A DNA stretch of 64,000 bases. It comes from Burkholderia sp. Bp8992 (GTDB lineage: Bacteria; Pseudomonadota; Gammaproteobacteria; Burkholderiales; Burkholderiaceae). The notes beneath the pieces were generated by a model. The model was not told the DNA's origin. It ran no database searches and saw only the letters and a list, made by a program, of their open reading frames with translations. Shown in pieces: positions 1 to 9,958 of this stretch (position 1 is its first letter; each line of letters starts with the position of its first letter). A program made the position numbers and the translations under genes. The stretch lies in the NCBI RefSeq assembly GCF_003853705.1, contig NZ_QTQI01000031.1:1-64000 (forward strand). The letters are read 5' to 3'.

Positions 1-642
1 CTCGCGCTTTCCGCAACGGCCCTCGCCGCGTGCTCGACCGCCTCCGGCCCGACCTTCAGCGCCTCCGAACTGCAGCCGCGCGACGGCGTGCGCACGTTCC
101 AGGTGGACTGCCACGGCCTGCTGTCGGGCCCGCAGACCTGCATGAAGGCCGCCCGAAAGATCTGCGGCGACGAGCCCGTGCGCGCCGTCGATTCGGCCCG
201 CGCGCTGCGCGACAAATCCGATCCGGCCACGCTGGTCTTCCAGTGCGGCGCGGCGCCGGCCGAAGCGGCCTCGGCCGCCGCACCGGCAACCGCCGCCGTC
301 GAACAGGTGAACCTGTCGGGCGACGCGCTGTTCGCCACCGATCACGCGACGCTCGCGCCGACCGCGCGCGAATCGCTCGACCGGCTGCTGAACGAGCGCA
401 AGGACCACGCGTACTCGCAGGTGTCGGTTACCGGCTTCACCGACTCGGTGGGCAGCGACGACTACAACCTCGCGCTGTCGAAGCGCCGCGCCGAATCGGT
501 CGCCGCCTATCTGAAGGCACACGGCCTGAAGACCGACTCGATGACGGTGTCGGGCCGCGGCAAGGCCGATCCGGTCGCATCGAACGCGACGCCCGAAGGC
601 CGCGCGAGCAACCGCCGCGTCGAAATCCGGCTGCAGCACTGA
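1..642 (+). CDS. OmpA-family outer-membrane lipoprotein (5' end outside window)
   Basis: The reading frame is open from base 1, so the start lies upstream of the window. The visible N-terminus reads LALSATALAAC, a lipobox whose Cys would be lipidated. After a variable segment of about 85 residues comes an OmpA C-terminal peptidoglycan-binding domain: GDALFATDHATL, then TGFTDSVGSDDYN, then LSKRRAESVAAYL, ending in SNRRVEIRL. This is the typical OmpA/MotB fold that binds diaminopimelate in the periplasm. The role is inferred to be anchoring the outer membrane to the cell wall. A GC-rich hairpin follows the stop. Confidence 0.9.
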   Translation, partial: LALSATALAACSTASGPTFSASELQPRDGVRTFQVDCHGLLSGPQTCMKAARKICGDEPVRAVDSARALRDKSDPATLVFQCGAAPAEAASAAAPATAAVEQVNLSGDALFATDHATLAPTARESLDRLLNERKDHAYSQVSVTGFTDSVGSDDYNLALSKRRAESVAAYLKAHGLKTDSMTVSGRGKADPVASNATPEGRASNRRVEIRLQH

Positions 643-1024
643 GCAGCCGGCCGCCGCACCTGCGGCGGCCGATCCGGCAGGCCGCCAGCGGCGCGCCGGA
701 CAACGCGGGCGCCGCAACGCCGGCGCCCCGCTCCCGTGGGGCCGGCGGGGATGTCAAAGTTCGTCACGTCCTGCCAAAACCGGCGATTTCCATGCCACAA
801 TCGCCGCAGACAGTCGCCGGGGCAGCCTGCCCGAATCGCGCGCGCGCCAGGCGCGCCCGACGACACGCCGGAATCCGGCTGCCGCCCTCGCGAACCTCGT
901 CGTCCGATTCGCGTACCGCGACGCACCGGCGCGAATCCAACCATGACAACCCACGGCGCGCCGCTTCCGGGCCAGACGCTCGACGCGATGCCCGGACGCA
1001 CGACGCCGCAGAGGAAACCAACCG
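643..1024. other. Intergenic region before the DUF2827 cluster
   Basis: This 382-base gap holds the post-ompA hairpin and a second GC-rich imperfect hairpin around 718-747 (GCCGG..CCCC / GGGG CCGGC). Just after it, CACAAT near 799 could be a -10 for the DUF2827 cluster, but no convincing -35 is visible. I see no credible coding sequence here; the reading frames are open only because of high GC. Confidence 0.5.
648..671 (+). terminator. Hairpin after the OmpA-like gene
   Basis: A perfect stem starts 6 bases after the stop. GGCCGCCGCA at 649-658 pairs with TGCGGCGGCC at 661-670, and 648/671 add one more pair. The loop is only two bases. No T-run follows, so it may be a 3'-end stabiliser or a Rho-type end rather than a classical terminator. 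Confidence 0.45.
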
Positions 1025-2170
1025 GTGACGGACATCAATGAAGCCGCCGCGGGCGGCACCCGCAAGCAACGGCCGGCTGTCGGCATCTCGCTGTTTGCGC
1101 GCGACGGCCAGGCGATCTGGGAAAACGGCATTCACCAGAACATCGCGTTCCTCGCGATGATGCTCAAGCGCTCGGATCGCGTCGGCCCCGTCTATTTCCT
1201 GAACGGCGGCGATGCGAACGCGCTGCCGGCCGGCCTCGAACTCGACGGCCTCGACATCCCGCTCGTGAAACCCGCCGACGTCACGCACGAACTCGACGTC
1301 GTGATCGAAATGGGCGCGCAGCTGCCGGTCGAATGGCTCCGGCACATGAAGGCACTCGGCAAGAAGATCGCCGCGTTCTTCTGCGGGCACGTCTATGCGG
1401 GCCTGTGCGAAACGCCGATCTTCGGGAAACCGTCGGGGCACGTGTTCAACGGCGCGCCGTTCGACGAAGTATGGCTGCTGCCGCAATACGACAAGACCGC
1501 CGCGCCGATGCTGCAGACCATCCTGCGTGCGCCCGTCCATCTGATGCCGCACATCTGGTCGCCGTACTTCCTCGAGCGCCGCGTCGCCGTGATCGCCGGC
1601 GAAGGTGCGACGTTCGGCTATCAGCCCGGCGCCCGCCCGTGGCGCCTCGCGATGCTCGAACCGAACATCTCGGTCGCCAAGTCCTGCCACTACCCGATGC
1701 TCGCGTGCGACGAGTTCTACCGCGCGCGGCCGGACGCGGTGCAGCACATGTTCGTCGTCAACGCGATGCACATGAAGGAGCATCCGACCTTCGTGCACTT
1801 CGCGAACAGCCTCGATCTCGTCCGCCAGCACAAGGCGACCTTCGAACCGCGCCTCGACCTGCCGGGCTTCATGGCGCGCCACGCGGATGCGGTCGTGTCG
1901 CACCACTGGGAAAACGGGCAGAACTATCTGTATTACGACGTGCTGTACGGCGGCTATCCGCTGATCCACAACTCGACGCTGATCGGCGACGCCGGCTATT
2001 ACTACCCGGATTTCGACGCCGCCGCGGGCGGCCGCGCGCTGCTCGACGCGTGGCTGCATCACGACGAACGCCTCGACGACTACCGCACGAAAGCCGGCCG
2101 GCTGCTGCAATCGGTCTCGATCGACAATCCCGCGAACCTCGACGCGTTTGTCTCGCGTCTGGTCGCCTGA
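1025..2170 (+). CDS. DUF2827 protein, paralogue 1 (possible GT-B-like glycosyltransferase)
   Basis: This 381-residue protein has a GTG start with GAGG about 10 bases upstream. No signal peptide or membrane segment is seen, so it is probably cytoplasmic. It matches the DUF2827 pattern: IWENGIHQN at 31-39, EMGAQL at 95-100, PHIWSPYF at 175-182, LEPNISVAKS at 211-220, SHHWENGQNYLYYD at 292-305, YPLIHNS at 311-317 and GYYYPDFD near 324. The C-terminal SHxWENxxNY...YPLIHN block resembles the donor-sugar site of GT-B glycosyltransferases; that is inference, as the family has no established function. It is the first of three tandem paralogues, 14 bases before the next. Confidence 0.85.
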   Translation: MTDINEAAAGGTRKQRPAVGISLFARDGQAIWENGIHQNIAFLAMMLKRSDRVGPVYFLNGGDANALPAGLELDGLDIPLVKPADVTHELDVVIEMGAQLPVEWLRHMKALGKKIAAFFCGHVYAGLCETPIFGKPSGHVFNGAPFDEVWLLPQYDKTAAPMLQTILRAPVHLMPHIWSPYFLERRVAVIAGEGATFGYQPGARPWRLAMLEPNISVAKSCHYPMLACDEFYRARPDAVQHMFVVNAMHMKEHPTFVHFANSLDLVRQHKATFEPRLDLPGFMARHADAVVSHHWENGQNYLYYDVLYGGYPLIHNSTLIGDAGYYYPDFDAAAGGRALLDAWLHHDERLDDYRTKAGRLLQSVSIDNPANLDAFVSRLVA

Positions 2171-2184
2171 ACCGGAGCATACGC

Positions 2185-3339
2185 ATGTCGGACTCCAATG
2201 CCCGTCAAGCGCCCGGCGAGGGCAAGCGTCTCGTCGTCGGCGTGTCGCTGTTCGTGCGCGGCGCCGGCCAGTCGCTGTGGGAAAACGGCATCTTCCAGAA
2301 CTGCCTGCTGCTGATCCTGCTGCTGCGCCAGTCGCCGCTCGTCGCGGAAGCCGTGATGGTGAACGGCGGCGAGCAGGTTGCCGACCCGCAGATGATGCTC
2401 GGCGAGTGGGACGTGCCGCTGCTGTCGATGGACGAAGCGCTCGAGCGCTGCGACGTGCTGATCGAGATGAGCGCGCAGTTCGGCGCGGACTACCTGCGCG
2501 CGTTCCGCGACCGCGGCGGCAAGGTCGTCACGATGCGGGTCGGCAACGACTACGTGATCGACATCGAACGCGCGATGTTCGACAAGCCGTCGGGCTTCCT
2601 GTTCTCGGGCGCGCCGTACGACGCTGTGTGGACGATTCCCGAGTTCGAGCGCTCGTGCCTGCACTATTACCAGACCGGCCTGCGCGCGCCCGTCACGATC
2701 GTCCCGCACATCTGGCATCCGATGCTGTTCGACAAGGCGCGCGCGACGCTCGGCGCCGGCCTGACGTTCGGCTATCAGCCCGGCAAGCCGCGCTGGCGCG
2801 TGACGATGTTCGAACCGAATATCTGCATGGTGAAGACAAGCGTCATCCCGATGCTGGTCACGGAAGAGGCGTACCGCGCCAATCCGAGGTTCCTCGAGTT
2901 CGTGCGCGTGTGCAACACGATCCACCTGAAGGAACATGCGACGTTCGTCCACTTCGCGAAGAGCCTCGACATCGTGAACCACGGCGTCACGACGTTCGAA
3001 AGCCGCTATGCGGTGTACGAGTTCATGGCTGCGTACGGCGATGCGGTGGTATCGCACACGTGGGAAAACGCGCAGAACTACCTGTACTACGAGCTGCTGT
3101 ACGGCGACTATCCGCTGATCCACAACTCGCCGTTCCTCGGCAAGGCCGGGTATTTCTATCCGGACTTCGACTGCCAGGCCGGCGGCCGCGCGCTGCTGCA
3201 GGCGTTCGACGAGCACGACGCGAATCTCGACGCCTATCGCGAGCAGTCGAAGCACGTGCTCGATTCGGTCAGCATCTACAACCCCGAGAATGTCGCGGCC
3301 TACACGGACGCGATCGCTTCCCTCTATCGCGACGCGTGA
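2185..3339 (+). CDS. DUF2827 protein, paralogue 2
   Basis: 384 residues. The ATG at 2185 is chosen because CGGAG lies 8 bases upstream and the homology with paralogue 1 begins just after it; the frame is open much further upstream only by chance. Shared blocks are SLWENGIFQN, VPHIWHPM, FEPNICMVKTSVIPML, HLKEHATFVHFAKSLDIV, SHTWENAQNYLYYE (Ser290 onward) and YPLIHNSPFLGKAGYFYP. It is clearly a tandem duplicate of the preceding gene but diverged (HHWENG becomes HTWENA), suggesting a different substrate rather than redundancy. No function is known. It is co-oriented with, and only 14 bases from, the first paralogue, so the two are probably one transcript. Confidence 0.85.
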   Translation: MSDSNARQAPGEGKRLVVGVSLFVRGAGQSLWENGIFQNCLLLILLLRQSPLVAEAVMVNGGEQVADPQMMLGEWDVPLLSMDEALERCDVLIEMSAQFGADYLRAFRDRGGKVVTMRVGNDYVIDIERAMFDKPSGFLFSGAPYDAVWTIPEFERSCLHYYQTGLRAPVTIVPHIWHPMLFDKARATLGAGLTFGYQPGKPRWRVTMFEPNICMVKTSVIPMLVTEEAYRANPRFLEFVRVCNTIHLKEHATFVHFAKSLDIVNHGVTTFESRYAVYEFMAAYGDAVVSHTWENAQNYLYYELLYGDYPLIHNSPFLGKAGYFYPDFDCQAGGRALLQAFDEHDANLDAYREQSKHVLDSVSIYNPENVAAYTDAIASLYRDA

Positions 3340-3364
3340 CGCGCCGCCCTTTACGGACTCCGAC

Positions 3365-3832
3365 ATGACCGCACGCCCGCTCCTCACCCGCGCCAAATGG
3401 CTGATCGGCTGCGCCGCCGCTTCGATCGCGATCGGTGCGCACGCGCAAGCCGCCGGCGAATCGGCCGACACGCTGCTCCGCGACTCGGATGCCGTGTTCA
3501 AGCAGCTCGACGCCGGCCAGTACGGCGCGGTGTGGACCGACGCCGCCGCGTTCGTGAAGGCGCGCATCAAGCAGGACCAGTTCGCGGCCGACATGCAGCA
3601 TGCACGCCAGTCGGTCGGCACGGTCAGCCATCGCGGCTGGGCGCAAGTCACGCGCATCCGCTACGAACGTACGCCGGGGATGCCCGACGGGCTCTACGCG
3701 AACGTCGATTACGCGACGACGCTGACGAGCGGCTCCACGGTGTTCGAGAAGCTGAGCTTCCGCCTCGAGGACGACGGCCGCTGGCACCTGACGGGCTACG
3801 TGCCGCGCCAGTCGCAAAACTTCGCGCAATAA
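3365..3832 (+). CDS. Secreted DUF4019-type protein
   Basis: 155 residues starting at ATG 3365, 25 bases after paralogue 2. Residues 1-29 form a signal peptide (KWLIGCAAASIAIGAHAQA), so the mature protein is periplasmic or exported. The rest (ADTLLRDSDAVFKQLDAGQYGAVWTDAAAFVKARI ... WAQVTRIRYER ... VDYATTL ... DGRWHLTGYVP) fits the DUF4019 family, a small cone-like fold of unknown function. It sits between two DUF2827 genes with short gaps on both sides, implying co-transcription. Its job is unknown; as the only exported product of the tandem set it could act at the envelope end of the pathway. Confidence 0.75.
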   Translation: MTARPLLTRAKWLIGCAAASIAIGAHAQAAGESADTLLRDSDAVFKQLDAGQYGAVWTDAAAFVKARIKQDQFAADMQHARQSVGTVSHRGWAQVTRIRYERTPGMPDGLYANVDYATTLTSGSTVFEKLSFRLEDDGRWHLTGYVPRQSQNFAQ

Positions 3833-3865
3833 GCCGCGCGCCGCCCGCCCCACGGAGCCGATCCG

Positions 3866-5002
3866 ATGAAACTCAATGTCGCGATTACGATGAACGTGCA
3901 GCGCGACGCGACGCAGTCGATCTGGTACAACGGCGCGAACCAGCACTGCGTGTACCTGTACATGCTGCTGAAGCAGTCGCCGCTGATCGGCGAGGTCTGG
4001 CTTGCACACGACAACGGCATCACCGAGTATCCGCAGGCGCTGATGATGGACGCGTTCGGCGACGCGCTGCGGCCGCTGTCGGCCGTCGTCCACCAGACCG
4101 ACCTGCTGATCGAGATGAATGCGTTCGTCGATCCGTCGCACACGGACGTCGTGCGCCAGCGCGGCGGCAAGTGCGTGTCGTATCGCTTCGGCAACGACTA
4201 CGTGATCGCGGTCGAGACGATCAACTTCGAGAAGAACGACTGGCGGCCGAACCCGCACCGCGTGCAGTTCGACGAGATCTGGACCAACCCGCAGCACATG
4301 CACACGTGCGCGGCCTATTTCCAGGCCGTGTATCGCGCGCCGGTGATCGAACTGCCGCACATCTGGTCACCGTATTTCATCGAGCGCAGCCTCGACGCCG
4401 ACCCTGAACTGAAGGCGCGCTTCGGCTACCGCAACCACGGCCCGGCCAAGCGCATCGCGTTCTTCGAGCCGAACCTGAACGTCGTGAAAAGCGCGATCGT
4501 GCCGATGCTCGCCGCGAACGCGTGCTACGTCGAACACCCGGAGCTCGTCGAGCACGTGTACATGACCAACACGTTCGACAAGAAGGAAAACGTCGCCTTC
4601 AAGCATCTCGCGCTCGGGCTCGAGATGGTGCGCGACGGCAAGGCGACCGCCGACGTGCGCGCGCCGTTCGTCGCATGGGCCGCGCATCACACCGACATCG
4701 TCGTGTCGCACCACTGGGAAAACGGCCTCAACTACCTGCTGTACGACGCGCTGTACGGCAACTACCCGCTCGTGCACAACTCGCCGTTCCTGCGTGACGT
4801 CGGCTACTACTACCCGGACTTCGAGATCTTCGATGCGGCACGCGCGATCGCGACCGCCGCGCAGACGCACGACGCGCGGCTCGACGACTACGCGGCCGCG
4901 GCCCGCCGCTGCCTGCACCAGGTCGACACGCTCGCCGAGCACAACGTCCGCGCATACTCCGAGCAGATCCAGACGCTGTTCGCCGGCCGCGCGCTCGGCT
5001 GA
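3866..5002 (+). CDS. DUF2827 protein, paralogue 3
   Basis: 378 residues, ATG with GGAG 8 bases upstream, 33 bases after the DUF4019 gene. Conserved blocks are IWYNGANQH (19-27), LPHIWSPYFIERS, FFEPNLNVVKSAIVPML, SHHWENGLNYLLYD (Ser281 onward), YPLVHNSPFLRDVGYYYPDFE. The N-terminal Glu of WENG is replaced by Tyr, and the usual KEHPTFVHFA block is KKENVAFKHLA, so this copy is the most diverged of the tandem three. It is the last gene of the rightward cluster; the next gene faces it. The function is uncharacterised, and the glycosyltransferase-like reading of the C-terminal motif is inference. Confidence 0.85.
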   Translation: MKLNVAITMNVQRDATQSIWYNGANQHCVYLYMLLKQSPLIGEVWLAHDNGITEYPQALMMDAFGDALRPLSAVVHQTDLLIEMNAFVDPSHTDVVRQRGGKCVSYRFGNDYVIAVETINFEKNDWRPNPHRVQFDEIWTNPQHMHTCAAYFQAVYRAPVIELPHIWSPYFIERSLDADPELKARFGYRNHGPAKRIAFFEPNLNVVKSAIVPMLAANACYVEHPELVEHVYMTNTFDKKENVAFKHLALGLEMVRDGKATADVRAPFVAWAAHHTDIVVSHHWENGLNYLLYDALYGNYPLVHNSPFLRDVGYYYPDFEIFDAARAIATAAQTHDARLDDYAAAARRCLHQVDTLAEHNVRAYSEQIQTLFAGRALG

Positions 5003-5030
5003 CCGCCCCTTCGGACGCGCGCCGGCTGCG

Positions 5031-5447
5031 CTACACCAGCACGCGATCGCCGCTTTGCGCGGCGAACACGCGGCCATGCCGCCGTCCCATGCGGGCGAGC
5101 ACGCCAAAACGACGTAGCGCCTGCCCGCTTACGCTGCCGGCTTGCCTGGCGAGGCTGTCGGACACGCCGCGCGCGATCGCCGAATCGTCGCCGCACGCGC
5201 CGGCGATGACGCCCGCGTAATAGTGTCGCGCGGCCAGCTCGCGGTCGTTGGCATCGAGCGGTTTCATCCGCTGGATACCGCGTGCGACGGCTTTCAGGCC
5301 GTCGAGATACGGTGCGACGTCGATCGGCACATCGGTCGACTCGGCGCCCAGTTGCCGCAGCATGTCGGCCAACTCGGCGAGCGCGACGAGGTCGCGCGCA
5401 TCGGTTGCCTGCGTGCCCGTTCCGACTCCGGCCTTCGTCCCCGCCAT
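5031..5447 (-). CDS. Hypothetical protein
   Basis: 138 residues. The start at 5447 (MAGTKAGVGTG...) is supported by AAAGGGG a few bases upstream; the frame extends further up without a better site. It is soluble, rich in Ala, Asp and Arg, with no signal peptide, membrane segment or motif I recognise. The central stretch ALAELADMLRQLGAES and YLDGLKAVARGIQRM is predicted helical. It converges on the third DUF2827 gene with a 28-base gap and lies downstream of the EAL-domain gene on the same strand, 46 bases away, so the two may be co-transcribed. Function unknown. Confidence 0.55.
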   Translation of the reverse strand: MAGTKAGVGTGTQATDARDLVALAELADMLRQLGAESTDVPIDVAPYLDGLKAVARGIQRMKPLDANDRELAARHYYAGVIAGACGDDSAIARGVSDSLARQAGSVSGQALRRFGVLARMGRRHGRVFAAQSGDRVLV

Positions 5448-5493
5448 GCCACACCCCTTTGCGATTCGTCCCGCCGTGCCCGTTTTCACGCCG

Positions 5494-6297
5494 TCACGCG
5501 GCGGCCGGCGACCGCCATGAAAAGCGGATGCCCTGCGCCCATGCAACGCCGGCATCCATGATGATCTGCCGGTCCATCTCGCTCTCCACGCCTTCGACGA
5601 CGACGTGCCGCGCGCCTTCGTGCGCGAACGCGATCAGCCTGCGGAACTGGTAGCGCCCGATCGCGTTGCGCTTGATCATCGACAGGATCGACCGGTCGAG
5701 CTTCACGATGTCGGGATTGCCGACCACCAGATTGTTCAATGCGCTGAAGCCGACGCCGAAATCGTCGATCGCGATCCGGCAACCGGCCTGCTGGAAGCGG
5801 TTCACGAACGACCGGCCCGCGACAGGGTTCAGCGGCCCCGTCTCCGTGATCTCGACCACCAGCCGCGCCGCCACCGACGGCTCGCGCTCGAGCCGCCTGA
5901 AGATCGCCAGCCACGCGTCGTCGACGACCGCGCTCGCAGCCGCGACGTTGCACCCGTAAATCGCGGCCGGATCGGCGCGCAGCGCGTCGATCGTCCGGCC
6001 GACCACGAGCCGGTCGAACCAGCGCATCAGCCCGAGCGCCTCGAGGCGCGGCAGGAAGGCAAGCGGCGGCAGCGCATCGCGCTCGCCCCACCGCAACCGC
6101 GCCAGGCGCTCCTGGTACAGCACGCCGCCCGACAGGTCGGCCCGGCACACCGGTTCATGCGCGAACCCGAGCCGGCTTTCCACGAAACTGCGTACCGATG
6201 CGAGATCGGCATGATCGTCGGGAGCGCCGAACACGAGATCGATCTCGTCACGATTCACTTCCCGATTCGCCTCCAGGCGAGCTTCGACCGCATTCAT
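5494..6297 (-). CDS. Stand-alone EAL-domain protein, probably degenerate
   Basis: 267 residues from ATG 6297, which has GGAG 6 bases upstream; ATG 6351 or TTG 6360 would add an N-terminal extension with weaker signals. EAL-family blocks seen are GCNVAAASAVVDD, RLVVEITETGPL, IAIDDFGVGFSALNNL, DIVKLDRSIL and HVVVEGVESE. EAL enzymes hydrolyse cyclic di-GMP. Here the signature expected as E-A-L-x-R-W reads L-A-R-L-R-W, so the first metal-binding Glu seems absent, and the C-terminal QGY.F..P is QGIRFSWRSP. No GGDEF or sensor domain is present. It may be a c-di-GMP receptor or a protein-binding scaffold rather than a phosphodiesterase. Confidence 0.8.
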   Translation of the reverse strand: MNAVEARLEANREVNRDEIDLVFGAPDDHADLASVRSFVESRLGFAHEPVCRADLSGGVLYQERLARLRWGERDALPPLAFLPRLEALGLMRWFDRLVVGRTIDALRADPAAIYGCNVAAASAVVDDAWLAIFRRLEREPSVAARLVVEITETGPLNPVAGRSFVNRFQQAGCRIAIDDFGVGFSALNNLVVGNPDIVKLDRSILSMIKRNAIGRYQFRRLIAFAHEGARHVVVEGVESEMDRQIIMDAGVAWAQGIRFSWRSPAAA

Positions 6298-6914
6298 CCG
6301 GTGCTCCGGCAAATGGCGAGCCGCCGATCGCGGCTCGACCTCAACAAACATGCGGAGCAAACCGACCCTGACGCGCTCCGCCGCCTACCCGGCCCATCCT
6401 GTTATGTCGATTTTTTCCGGGAGCGTACTGTTCGCTTCGGCGCGCCGTCAAATTCGATATTTTCAACGATATTCGGTTACTGCAAATACACCATGCGCGG
6501 ACCGTGCCGACAGTGCGACAGGTCACACAACACAAAGTACGGAACCACGAATCCTGATCGTTTATTTTCACCACCGAGACCGCTTTATGCGAATCGATTT
6601 CTTTCGCGATACACGGTACTACAAATGGGAAAATCGTTAATTAATCAGACGAATGCACGCCCATGAAGCACCGCCCGCCTTGGGTGCGCAGGCTCGCGGC
6701 AAAGGCCCACGACTCGGGCCGCCAGCCACTGAAAATCGGCCGCCGCACATCATTCGATCGCCGCAGCATTCAATTTTCGCGTTTCAAACGATATTAACTA
6801 ATCTAAAAACGGAATCGGTTGAGATGAATCAATCATATCAAGTTTCATTTATATGATGATTATTAATTGAAACATCTTTAACAATCTTAAAGACTTGTTA
6901 ACCTATAAAATTAT

Positions 6915-6995
6915 TTCCGACGGACTTCCCTCGGAGCCGTCAATTTCGTGCCTTCAAAACCGTCGAACCGATCGGGTTCGGCGGTTTCTTTTTTT
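6915..6995 (+). ncRNA. Candidate small RNA of about 80 nt
   Basis: TATAAA at 6904-6909 is a good -10 in AT-rich DNA; the -35 is weak. About 8 bases on, the sequence folds into a first hairpin (GACGG at 6919-6923 region pairing with CCGTC at 6937-6941, with CUUC/GGAG inside) and ends in a 13-bp terminator hairpin with seven T residues. No reading frame of useful size lies between. The promoter-hairpin-terminator layout is seen; calling it an sRNA is inference. Confidence 0.4.
6957..6995 (+). terminator. Strong intrinsic terminator, possibly bidirectional
   Basis: The left arm 6957-6969 (AAACCGTCGAACC) pairs with 6975-6987 (GGTTCGGCGGTTT) through 13 pairs including one G-U, around a 5-base loop, then T7 at 6989-6995. 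On the other strand the stem ends in A/T-rich sequence giving UUUU, so it may also end transcription of the leftward DUF2827 gene that stops at 7083. Confidence 0.8.
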
Positions 6996-7082
6996 AACGG
7001 CATTATTTCGTCAGACATGAGGGCGGGACAATCCCGATGGCGGCCGGCGGCGCAATGATCATGCGCCGCGGAAAATCGGGCC

Positions 7083-8225
7083 TTACGCGACCGGCGCGCC
7101 GATCAGGTTCGCGAGCAGCCCGTCGTATTCGGCGACGAGCGCCTGATTCGCCGACGTATAGCGGCCGAGGATCTCGCGCTGGCGCCGCGTGTACGCTTCC
7201 CAGTCGTCGTCGTGCGTATGCAGCGCACGCAGCAGCGCGTCGGCGCCCTGCTGCACGTCGTTGTCCGGGTAGTAGTAGCCGAGATCGGGGGCGAGGCTCG
7301 CGTTGTGCACGAGCGGATAGCCTTGCCAGCACACGTCGAAATAGAAGTAGTTCAGCGGGTTCGACCATTGGTGTGACACGACGATGTCGGTCAGGTCGGC
7401 CAGGAACAGCGGCGTGTCGAAGCGCCCGACGAAGCTCGCCTTGCCCGCGCGCACGATGTCGAGATAATTCATCAGCATCACGAACTCGGGGCTGTCGTGC
7501 GCGAGGCGATCGGCGTTCGTTACGTGCGCGAAGCAGATCGCGTCGGGGTCGCGCCGATACGCTTCGTCGATGATCAGCATCGGATACACGCAGAACTTCA
7601 CGACGTTGTGGTTCGGCTCCATCACCGTCAGCCGCTTGCCGGGCTCGCTGCGTGGCCGATATTCGCCGTGCTCGGGCAACGTCTGCGCGCGTGCGCTCAG
7701 GAACATCGGATCCCACACGAACGGCACGACGCGCCCCGGGCAGCGGCGCAGCGACTGCAGGAACGGCAGCGACGACGGCGCGATCTGCGGAATCGCCCAC
7801 ACCTCGTCGTAGCCGCGATTGATGAACAGCGAATCCCACAGCCGGCGGCCGAACAGCATCGACTCCATCGCGTTGATGTACTCGACACCGCAGCAGTAGC
7901 TGACGAGCTTCGCGCCGCGCGCTTTCAGGTAGGCCGTCTGCTCGCCGTTGATCTGCCCGCCCAGCTCGATCACGACGTCGAGCGCATCCTTCATGTCGGC
8001 GAACGCACGCGTGTCGTACACGTTGCGATCCCACGGCAGCGCATCGGTAAGCGGCACGTCGGTGGTGTTGACCAGCGTCACGCGGTAGCCGTGCGGCGAC
8101 GCCATCAGCAGCTTCGCGAGAAACAGCGCGTTCTGCTTGATGCCGTTGATCCACAGGCTTTCGTCGGGGGCACGCAACCCGATCGTGATACCGATGCGCA
8201 GGCCGTTCAGGACAGGAGACGTCAT
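7083..8225 (-). CDS. DUF2827 protein, paralogue 4 (inverted copy)
   Basis: 380 residues, ATG at 8225 chosen where family similarity begins (MTSPVLNGLRIGITIGL). Blocks in order are LWINGIKQN, DVVIELGGQI, VPFVWDPMF, VMEPNHNVVKFCVYPML, EFVMLMNYLDIVRAGKASF, SHQWSNPLNYFYFD (Ser284 onward), YPLVHNASLAPDLGYYYPDND. It is the most divergent of the four: WENG in the C-terminal block becomes WSNP. It lies on the opposite strand from the tandem copies and divergent from the glycosyltransferase gene, with a shared 413-base gap. Family function unknown; a glycosyltransferase-like role is inferred from motif and context. Confidence 0.85.
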   Translation of the reverse strand: MTSPVLNGLRIGITIGLRAPDESLWINGIKQNALFLAKLLMASPHGYRVTLVNTTDVPLTDALPWDRNVYDTRAFADMKDALDVVIELGGQINGEQTAYLKARGAKLVSYCCGVEYINAMESMLFGRRLWDSLFINRGYDEVWAIPQIAPSSLPFLQSLRRCPGRVVPFVWDPMFLSARAQTLPEHGEYRPRSEPGKRLTVMEPNHNVVKFCVYPMLIIDEAYRRDPDAICFAHVTNADRLAHDSPEFVMLMNYLDIVRAGKASFVGRFDTPLFLADLTDIVVSHQWSNPLNYFYFDVCWQGYPLVHNASLAPDLGYYYPDNDVQQGADALLRALHTHDDDWEAYTRRQREILGRYTSANQALVAEYDGLLANLIGAPVA

Positions 8226-8638
8226 CGTCGGCAGGATGGAAGGTTGAGCGGGAGTGGCATGGCGCAGTGTAGCGCGCGAAGCGCCGGCCGCGTCAAGCGG
8301 CGGCGACCAACCCGGCATTCTAGCGGAGCGCCGGCGGCACACTGTCAGGCAGTGTCAGCGGCCGGCCGGCACCTGCGAATCCGCGAAACGGTTATGCGAT
8401 ACTCCGGCGACTGGCCGCGCCATCGGGCGCGCAGTCGAACGGGCGAGCAACGCCCCACAGCAACGCCATCGGGAAACAGGGCTGACAGAATGGAACGCGA
8501 CGCCGCGCAAATCTTCCGTGCCGTCCGCCACGGACAGGCGCGGCACGCACCGGGCTCCATGCCCGGCGGCAGGTCCGTACGCAAGCACGCCGCGCGAATC
8601 GCGCGACGTGCGCCGCTTCCCTGCCCGCGGAGCGCGCG
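8226..8638. other. Divergent intergenic region between DUF2827-4 and the glycosyltransferase
   Basis: 413 bases, GC-rich, with no credible gene. It must hold both divergent promoters, but no good -35/-10 pair could be picked. A repeat-rich spot at 8340-8360 (ACTGTCAGGCAGTGTCAG) contains overlapping direct and inverted copies of CTGTC/CAGTG and is the only sequence that looks operator-like. Confidence 0.4.
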
Positions 8639-9958
8639 ATGATCGTCCTCAGCCACTTCAGCCAGCCTGCCCCCGCCAGCCTCGAGAATCACCGCTGGTA
8701 CGCGCAGGTGCACGGCTATCGTCACGAGATCGTCGACGCGTCCGCGATGCCGCAGGCGCTGCCGTTGCGGCCGCTGTATCGCTACGAATCGCTGCTCCAT
8801 GTGCTGCGCAACGCGCAGCCCGACGAACTCGTGCTGCTGCTCGGCGAAGATGCGGCGATCATCGAGCCGGTTGCACTCGAACGCCTGATGGCCGGGCGCG
8901 ACCGGCTGCTGGTCGACGCGTTGGCGCCGCCGCTGCCGCAGGTCGACGTGCAGATCTGGCGCAACACGCCGGACGTGCGCGCGATCGTGATGCAGCTCGT
9001 GCAGCGCTGCAAGCTCGGCAGCGAGCCGAGGCTGACGTCGGAAGCCGCGCTGTTCGCCGGGCTCGACACGCATCGCTACATGACATTGATCGACGGACTG
9101 TACGCCGTCATGCCGTGCAGCCCGGACCTCGATCCGATGTGGGGCCGCGCACCGACGTTCGCGATCAGCATCGACGACACGCCTCGGGACCCCGAACGCA
9201 AAGGCACGACGCCGCGTTTTCGCGACACGCTCGTCGCGTACGTCAATCGATGCCGCGCCGCCGGCCGGCCGATGTTCTCGTTCGATCACGACGCCGCCGC
9301 ACCGGACGAAGCCGCCGAACGCAGCACGTACAACCCCGGCCGCCCGATTGCGCTGATGATGCTGTACACGCCCAACATCGGCAGCTACGCACGCGTCGCC
9401 GAGCGCAATTTCCGGCGCTACGCCGATGCGCACGGCTACACGCTCTACGTGCATCGCGACATTCCCGCCGAGATCGGGCTGAACGCGACGGGCAACTGGT
9501 TCAAGCCGTGGCTGCTCCATGCGTACCTCCAGCATCACGAATGGGTCGTGTGGCTCGATGCCGACGTGCTGATCGCGGACCAGCAGCAACCGCTGGAGCC
9601 GCTGTTCGAAGGGCGCGACTGGCTGCTCGCGCAGGATATCGGCCAGTGGTCGTTCAACTCCGGCGTGATGGCGTTCCGCCGCACCGAACGCAACGACGCG
9701 ATGCTGCAGGACCTGATGACGACGATCGCCGCGCTGCACGACCGGTCGAGCGTCTATGCGAGCGACGGCGACCAGCTGCATTTCATTCGCGCGATGGAGC
9801 GCGACGGGCAGCTGCAAGGCGAAGGCGTGGCCGATCTCGTCAGCTTCAACACGCCCTGGCTGTTCCGCCGCGCGGACAGCTACATCGTGCACTACTACGG
9901 AATGTGGTCCGCGATGCGCGCGCTGATGATGGCGCACGACGACGGGCTGCTGCGCTGA
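8639..9958 (+). CDS. GMA12/MNN10-like (GT34) glycosyltransferase with duplicated domain
   Basis: 439 residues, ATG with CGGAG upstream. The C-terminal half (about 235-439) is a GT-A-type domain: IALMMLYTPNIGSYARVAERN, RRYADAHGYTLYVHRD, then WVVWLDADVLIAD with the metal/nucleotide-binding DAD at 307-309, and FNSGVMAFRR. This matches galactosyltransferases of the GMA12/MNN10 family. The N-terminal half repeats the layout (NHRWYAQVHGYRHEIVDAS, LVLLLGEDAAII) but has lost a clean DxD, so it looks like a degenerate duplicate. No signal peptide is seen, so it is probably cytoplasmic. It adjoins four DUF2827 genes, suggesting a shared glycan pathway. The acceptor and product are unknown. Confidence 0.8.
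   Translation: MIVLSHFSQPAPASLENHRWYAQVHGYRHEIVDASAMPQALPLRPLYRYESLLHVLRNAQPDELVLLLGEDAAIIEPVALERLMAGRDRLLVDALAPPLPQVDVQIWRNTPDVRAIVMQLVQRCKLGSEPRLTSEAALFAGLDTHRYMTLIDGLYAVMPCSPDLDPMWGRAPTFAISIDDTPRDPERKGTTPRFRDTLVAYVNRCRAAGRPMFSFDHDAAAPDEAAERSTYNPGRPIALMMLYTPNIGSYARVAERNFRRYADAHGYTLYVHRDIPAEIGLNATGNWFKPWLLHAYLQHHEWVVWLDADVLIADQQQPLEPLFEGRDWLLAQDIGQWSFNSGVMAFRRTERNDAMLQDLMTTIAALHDRSSVYASDGDQLHFIRAMERDGQLQGEGVADLVSFNTPWLFRRADSYIVHYYGMWSAMRALMMAHDDGLLR

Follow-up and report, generated by a model that had tools for sequence, protein, structure and literature searches.

Bacterial adhesins can be glycosylated by dedicated enzymes, and a 2021 review counts two such routes for autotransporters, that of the HMW1C/NGT enzymes and that of the BAHTs, both of which modify their substrates in the cytoplasm before export (PMC8151025). 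The BimC gene, whose product belongs to the BAHT family, adjoins the gene of the Burkholderia trimeric autotransporter adhesin (TAA) BimA, according to the accessible part of one report (PMC11499645). GtfA and GtfB act together on serine-rich repeats, as stated in the portion of PMC7661464 available to us. For the TAA BCAM2418 of Burkholderia cenocepacia, O-glycosylation of the SLST repeats has been the subject of speculation, with no enzyme named in the accessible text (PMC7142374). Here we describe a cluster of four genes of the family DUF2827 in a 64,000-nucleotide stretch of Burkholderia sp. Bp8992 (contig NZ_QTQI01000031.1, positions 1 to 64,000), which as a whole is called the window. 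We consider it probable that the DUF2827 family consists of GT-B glycosyltransferases that work in the cytoplasm and are dedicated to TAA stalks with Ser/Thr-rich SLST repeats. This proposal draws on homology, the GT-B fold of one model, gene order, co-occurrence and the register of the repeats. Dedicated adhesin glycosylation as such is known; the involvement of a GT-B family without assigned function would be new. A full-text literature search for DUF2827 gave a cysteine database as the only mention in the text accessible to it, and titles and abstract openings held no link between DUF2827 and adhesins, subscription journals lying mostly outside that search.

The DUF2827 genes of the window are as follows, with bit scores for Pfam PF10933:

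1025..2170, plus strand: DUF2827 paralogue A (clade A2), predicted GT-B glycosyltransferase, 536 bits
2185..3339, plus strand: DUF2827 paralogue B, tandem partner of A, 522 bits
3866..5002, plus strand: DUF2827 paralogue C, fast-evolving, 368 bits
7083..8225, minus strand: DUF2827 paralogue D, inverted, own clade, 483 bits

An earlier note, made from the sequence, had described three tandem DUF2827 copies and an inverted fourth within 7.2 kb. The Pfam search bears this out, since PF10933 (cut-off 25 bits) matches all four proteins over nearly their full length; the likely start positions are 2185 for B and 8225 for D. The conserved blocks named in that note, EPNxxxxK and SHxW(E/S)N..NY...YPL(I/V)HN, are likewise present in all four, with the variants WENG, WENA, WENG and WSNP in A, B, C and D, respectively. 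Chance occurrence is ruled out by three to seven DUF2827 matches, fragments among them, in each of the 25 same-genus genomes searched.

The suggestion that DUF2827 proteins have a GT-B fold was followed up for protein A by structure prediction and Foldseek, as the note had proposed. For the input alignment, 55 of 62 representatives were used, the seven omitted rows including plasmid loci. The AlphaFold2 model reached a pLDDT of 91.4 and a pTM of 0.89, and Foldseek returned 200 matches in the PDB at E ≤ 1e-3, of which the 50 listed are, as we take them to be, GT-B-fold proteins and nearly all glycosyltransferases. BshA was the best match (E 1.5e-8, TM-score 0.60 of the query), WaaG and MshA were also in the lead, and trehalose- and sucrose-phosphate synthases, plant UGTs and OGT homologues were further among the matches listed. 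The model thus supports a predicted placement of A in the GT-B fold superfamily, with two Rossmann-like domains, and homology to A (48, 40 and 39% identity) would extend this fold to B, C and D. All 55 aligned members match PF10933, and at E ≤ 1 Pfam gave none of them a match to a different glycosyltransferase family; the DUF2827 profile had no PDB match at E ≤ 10, and an NCBIfam scan of A, C, D and the GT-A protein described below gave nothing above cut-off (for C only a chance-level match to TrbN, E 0.09). The PDB and Pfam profile searches, and NCBIfam for A, C and D, accordingly gave no membership in the BAHT (TibC) family. BAHTs (TibC, Aah, BimC) resemble the system proposed here in Ser/Thr O-glycosylation of autotransporters by an often co-encoded transferase (PMC8151025); they differ in their heptose donor and iron-finger cysteine motif, whereas DUF2827 matches only its own family among glycosyltransferases. 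Of the 381 positions compared across the 55 members, 23 are invariant, and 13 of the 23 fall in the C-terminal half, presumably the donor-site half as in GT-B enzymes. Thirteen of the 23 invariant residues lie behind strand ends (p 0.02), a result that carries no weight in the conclusion.

The genomic neighbourhood points to the substrate. An A-led query, of which the best 80 of 232 results were taken, supplied the DUF2827 loci and over-samples Burkholderia; the loci were scanned with an anchor profile that started from two plasmid TAAs and went through three iterations. A TAA anchor was present in 65 of 84 loci (L031-L114). In 60 of these 65 a same-strand DUF2827 gene follows downstream, at less than 500 bp in 26 loci, at 500-1500 bp in 31 and farther away in three; an OmpA gene lies in between in many of the 31. 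The other 19 loci lacked an anchor. In L041 and L042 the contig ends close to the cluster; in five (L087, L088, L089, L092 and L093) a Ser-rich open reading frame (ORF) with SLS repeats lies downstream and extends past the end of the locus, and in L091 an ORF of this kind lies upstream. Pfam YadA_anchor, applied to 26 DUF2827-positive genomes, found anchors in all 26, 176 in total or about 6.8 per genome, and, independently of the first profile, some of these matches directly adjoin DUF2827 sets, for instance at 63 bp in G007 and 54 bp in G015. By a rough estimate, a random point would have an anchor within 10 kb with about 2% chance at this density. The association recurs in different contexts, on contigs of Burkholderia, Variovorax, Ralstonia, Frateuria and Caballeronia as well as on conjugative plasmids. 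In close relatives, the gene upstream of the OmpA-A-B genes encodes a YadA-type TAA with a Ser/Thr-rich SLST-repeat stalk, and in the relative L037 the TAA ORF ends about 150 bp left of the position matching window base 1. Judging from these relatives, which are 91-96% identical over window positions 1-1400 (14 best rows), the TAA gene of the window's own strain is likely to be located just left of the window.

The stalks of DUF2827-linked TAAs carry a distinct signature. We compared 60 TAA ORFs from 13 genomes, drawn from the matches listed among 76 anchors counted there; sampling was uneven (two of seven anchors in G032, two of four in G014, with the cluster-side anchor of G014 left out). 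A TAA counted as linked when its anchor was no more than 3.5 kb from a DUF2827 gene, which gave 15 linked and 45 unlinked TAAs; the L160 TAA, which adjoins only a broken DUF2827 fragment, was dropped from the linked set. Linked stalks hold repeats such as SLSTSTSTGLSSANSSIT in many copies. The median Ser content was 30.0% in linked versus 10.5% in unlinked TAAs and the median SLST density 38.3 versus 3.3 per 1000 residues, and at least 25 SLST per 1000 residues were reached by 14/15 linked versus 2/45 unlinked proteins. Of 1276 spacings of up to 40 residues from one SLST to the next in the 15 linked TAAs, 1270 are sums of 7 and 11, which by its periodicity is a heptad/hendecad coiled-coil register. 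One linked TAA (L117) matches both Pfam YadA_stalk and YadA_anchor. The stalks resemble BCAM2418 in their Ser/Thr-rich SLST repeats, as far as that TAA is described in the accessible text (PMC7142374); neighbouring locus tags did not establish BCAM2418 as the TAA of this locus. Unlike in Gram-positive serine-rich repeat adhesins, the stalk has trimeric-autotransporter domains, a coiled-coil register and a YadA anchor.

DUF2827 is patchily distributed. It occurred in 1 of the 16 other genomes of the order that were drawn along with the 25 same-genus genomes (G032, three matches), in none of 14 control genomes, in 6 of 300 genomes of an order-wide draw and in 40 of 150 genomes of a family draw, where G338, G339, G358 and G377 hold fragments only. 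A search of named genomes extended it to Frateuria (Rhodanobacteraceae) and one Verrucomicrobiota metagenome-assembled genome; among 18 plasmid records it was found on plasmids of B. glumae and B. ambifaria, and phage records gave no match with protein C as query. SLST arrays were scored as at least two matches per genome to a DNA pattern encoding SLSTSTSTG. In the family draw they were present in 28/40 DUF2827-positive versus 1/110 DUF2827-negative genomes (Fisher p 8e-20), and outside the genus in 15/25 versus 1/110. Fisher values overstate the evidence because species share ancestry; the fairer within-genus test, stratified over seven genera with broken DUF2827 copies scored as absent, gave z 5.3. 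In the order-wide draw the numbers were 3/6 versus 0/294, and the three positives without arrays (G280, G138 and G305) have a TAA or a Ser-rich ORF with SLST-like motifs beside DUF2827.

A second type of glycosyltransferase accompanies the family:

8639..9958, plus strand: two-domain GT-A glycosyltransferase, Glyco_transf_34 (GMA12/MNN10)

The earlier note had called this neighbour GMA12/MNN10-like, which the Pfam match confirms (E 7e-8, residues 256-320 only). Its two halves are duplicated, aligning at E 0.001 in a single comparison; WLDADV is kept in the C-terminal domain, the N-terminal copy is without DxD, and D307 and D309 are invariant in 13/13 aligned rows. The predicted structure is modest (pLDDT 64.3), and the Foldseek GT-A matches, which include LH3 and mimivirus R699 at low TM-scores, count as supporting only. 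A homologue (E ≤ 1e-10) occurred in 13/21 DUF2827-positive versus 0/79 DUF2827-negative genomes (p 3e-11), with a best match above 200 bits in nine of the 13 and weak, partial or broken matches in the other four. The GT-A gene sits between DUF2827 genes in two Hydromonas loci. To the note's idea of a glycan-assembly locus, the context and this co-occurrence lend support, while the glycosyltransferase activity itself is something we infer. The note had left the substrate open as a surface glycan or protein, and the evidence now points to the SLST-repeat stalk of the TAA.

Several observations weigh against this proposal. A GT-B fold by itself does not prove sugar transfer because the matches of A include MnaA (5enz), an epimerase, and VldE, a pseudo-glycosyltransferase, which are not ordinary transferases. 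No TAA-like ORF was found in the examined flank of 11 of the 84 loci (L035, L056, L078, L079, L081-L084, L086, L101 and L113). In G032, a DUF2827-positive genome of another family, the SLST TAA lies 2 Mb from the DUF2827 set, so the linkage is not universal. The linked TAA L121 is poor in SLST (7 per 1000 residues), the unlinked L131 and L143 exceed 25 per 1000 and a further unlinked group lies near 20; such SLST-dense unlinked TAAs may be substrates in trans. The DUF2827-negative genome G379 has three SLST-pattern matches. Conversely, 12 of the 40 DUF2827-positive family genomes stayed below two pattern matches. Four of the 12 hold fragments only; in another four (G280, G423, G442 and G337), SLST-like or Ser-rich ORFs lie close to the DUF2827 genes, and no SLST signal was seen in G395, G426, G427 and G445, one locus each being inspected in G395 and G426 and none in G445.

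If the adhesin were only a bystander, the DUF2827 enzymes would make lipopolysaccharide, capsule or exopolysaccharide. WaaG, which is among the top fold matches, is a lipopolysaccharide core transferase, and no TAA lies in the examined flank of certain DUF2827 sets, five loci of Collimonas among them. We regard this explanation as unlikely, given that the TAA link recurs across genera and conjugative plasmids, that gain and loss of SLST arrays follow DUF2827 within genera and that, of the nine ORFs scanned in the region, none was identified by Pfam as a sugar-nucleotide, flippase or polymerase gene.

A second alternative concerns the linkage, which could be to Asn in NxS/T sequons in the manner of HMW1C/NGT. 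HMW1C/NGT enzymes have a GT-B fold, as predicted here for DUF2827, and they too serve dedicated adhesin glycosylation, TAAs included. HMW1C-like enzymes modify TAAs (PMC8151025, and PMC5303269 in its accessible part), many of the repeats here contain NSS or NST, and sequons are more frequent in linked than in unlinked TAAs (26.9 versus 19.0 per 1000 residues, p 1e-5). This excess matches the Ser/Thr content alone, however, as the ratio of observed sequons to those expected from composition is 1.02 in linked TAAs (range 0.57-1.76) and 1.10 in unlinked ones; in this DUF2827-linked stalks differ from the targets of HMW1C/NGT, which modify Asn in NxS/T (PMC8151025). Moreover, two Caballeronia stalks have SLS arrays, 150 and 157 residues long, that contain no Asn, and the 55 aligned members showed no Pfam match at E ≤ 1 to these enzymes or to any other glycosyltransferase family than their own. 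N-glycosylation therefore appears improbable, and O-glycosylation of Ser/Thr by DUF2827 proteins is preferred.

In a tree of 62 representatives, B and D each form a clade and the A-type proteins form two, all of which extend across several genera; the D clade holds 15 of the 62 rows (support 100/100), and C is a single long branch near B (branch length 1.7). On this tree, the paralogues A, B and D had diverged before the genera arose. We assigned 320 proteins to clades across 85 loci (84 relatives and the window), omitting proteins shorter than 1000 bp or containing a stop or X. An intact A-B tandem is present in 82/85 loci, the window included; the exceptions L073, L096 and L106 each keep one member intact, the other being fragmented or present as a shortened copy. 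The presence of A follows by construction because locus retrieval was A-led, which does not apply to B. Paralogue C was found in 29/85 loci, the window included, and among the named loci only in Burkholderia. The earlier note had read the WENG differences between the copies as a sign of distinct substrates. This does not hold, since the Glu varies inside one orthologous clade, D (WSNP 27, WENP 17, WANP 2, WENA 1), and is mostly replaced in clade A1 (WQND 10, WGND 10 and others), with W and N retained; the counts were made by a text pattern that missed 49 of the 320 proteins. Distinct roles are better argued from the separate multi-genus clades of A, B and D. The same variation makes the Glu of the WEN motif unlikely as a universal catalytic residue, and its replacement in most A1 and most D proteins where the motif was found would suit non-catalytic, stalk-binding chaperones that retain a GT-B fold. 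One member of the GtfA/GtfB pair is non-catalytic, so the same could be true of one member here. For the family as a whole we doubt such a chaperone role, in view of its 23 invariant positions, over half of them in the C-terminal half, and of the GT-A enzyme that co-occurs with it. Truncated DUF2827 genes were noted at L096 11173-11544, L106 11173-11712 and L108 12344-13115, in what looks like deletion, and those of L096 and L108 are close to the TAA anchor.

Least probable of all is that the Ser-rich stalk and DUF2827 share a mobile adhesin island and nothing biochemical, as the carriage of the module by conjugative plasmids might suggest, because both can be kept when apart, by 2 Mb in G032 and apparently also in G370, which has 406 matches to the SLST DNA pattern and no TAA in the 20 kb around DUF2827.

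For the glycosylation of SLST stalks by DUF2827 we therefore suggest the following course. A and B, as an obligate pair, would act together on the stalk in the cytoplasm before export and most likely attach the first sugar or sugars to the outward-facing Ser/Thr residues of the SLST coiled coil, after which the glycan would be extended or varied by D, C and the two-domain GT-A enzyme. Catalysis, O-linkage, the sugars, the order of steps, the cytoplasmic site and the division of labour between A and B are what we infer here. The arrangement would work like GtfA/GtfB with their accessory transferases, a cooperating pair beside a giant Ser-rich stalked adhesin (accessible part of PMC7661464); a GT-B paralogue pair of this kind beside a Ser-rich adhesin corresponds to the A-B tandem. 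It differs in its hosts, in export by type V secretion in place of accessory Sec and in that DUF2827 has no sequence match in the PDB or other Pfam glycosyltransferase families. On balance we lean towards a more specific form, in which DUF2827 would be a third dedicated class of autotransporter glycosyltransferases and a Gram-negative counterpart of GtfA/GtfB, with a heteromeric GT-B pair, a dense O-glycan bottlebrush on the SLST stalk and paralogues that build lineage-specific glycans together with the GT-A enzyme. If correct, DUF2827 gains a function and a testable substrate, a reason is offered for the existence of Ser/Thr-rich SLST stalks and a third dedicated route joins HMW1C/NGT and TibC/BAHT. 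In Burkholderia, SLST TAAs are under study both as adhesins and as antigens (accessible parts of PMC7142374 and PMC10224339); an unrecognised sugar coat would therefore alter the reading of binding data and of work with unglycosylated recombinant fragments.

Further genes of the cluster and its surroundings are:

1..642, plus strand: OmpA-family lipoprotein, 5′ end just beyond the left window edge, Pfam OmpA E 5.6e-23
3365..3832, plus strand: DUF4019 gene, accessory, between B and C, PF13211 91.7 bits
5494..6360, minus strand: EAL-domain protein, putative c-di-GMP phosphodiesterase, between C and D, PF00563 132 bits
10040-12154, minus strand: phosphocholine-specific phospholipase C, right of the cluster, TIGR03396 948 bits

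In close relatives the OmpA lipoprotein gene is positioned between the TAA gene and the first DUF2827 gene, and in L037 a signal peptide with LAAC begins about seven codons left of window base 1. The lipoprotein weakly matches the model of the TAA partner TpgA (49.5 bits versus a cut-off of 350). TpgA ties the TAA AtaA to peptidoglycan, and by analogy the lipoprotein could be the anchor partner that ties the TAA to peptidoglycan here. The DUF4019 ORF is open from 3290, the start at 3365 being a chosen one; tblastn matches to it were present in 26/84 DUF2827 loci, and to the EAL-domain protein in 34/84. The EAL gene recurs by DUF2827-TAA clusters of other arrangement too (L063-L065, L067 and the plasmid locus L032), which suggests control of the adhesin by c-di-GMP. 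The phospholipase C gene is near the cluster in 10/84 loci, within the flank examined.

The five Collimonas DUF2827 loci adjoin genes that by eye resemble pilus-assembly genes. A lone DUF2827 gene is located on another replicon (L178 9962-11113; G001:C3:338021); in the surrounding 20 kb no TAA was detected, and single copies resembling this gene occur in G014, G019 and G024. On a B. ambifaria plasmid, type VI secretion genes lie no more than a few genes beyond the TAA-OmpA-DUF2827 module (L033 18376-25119).

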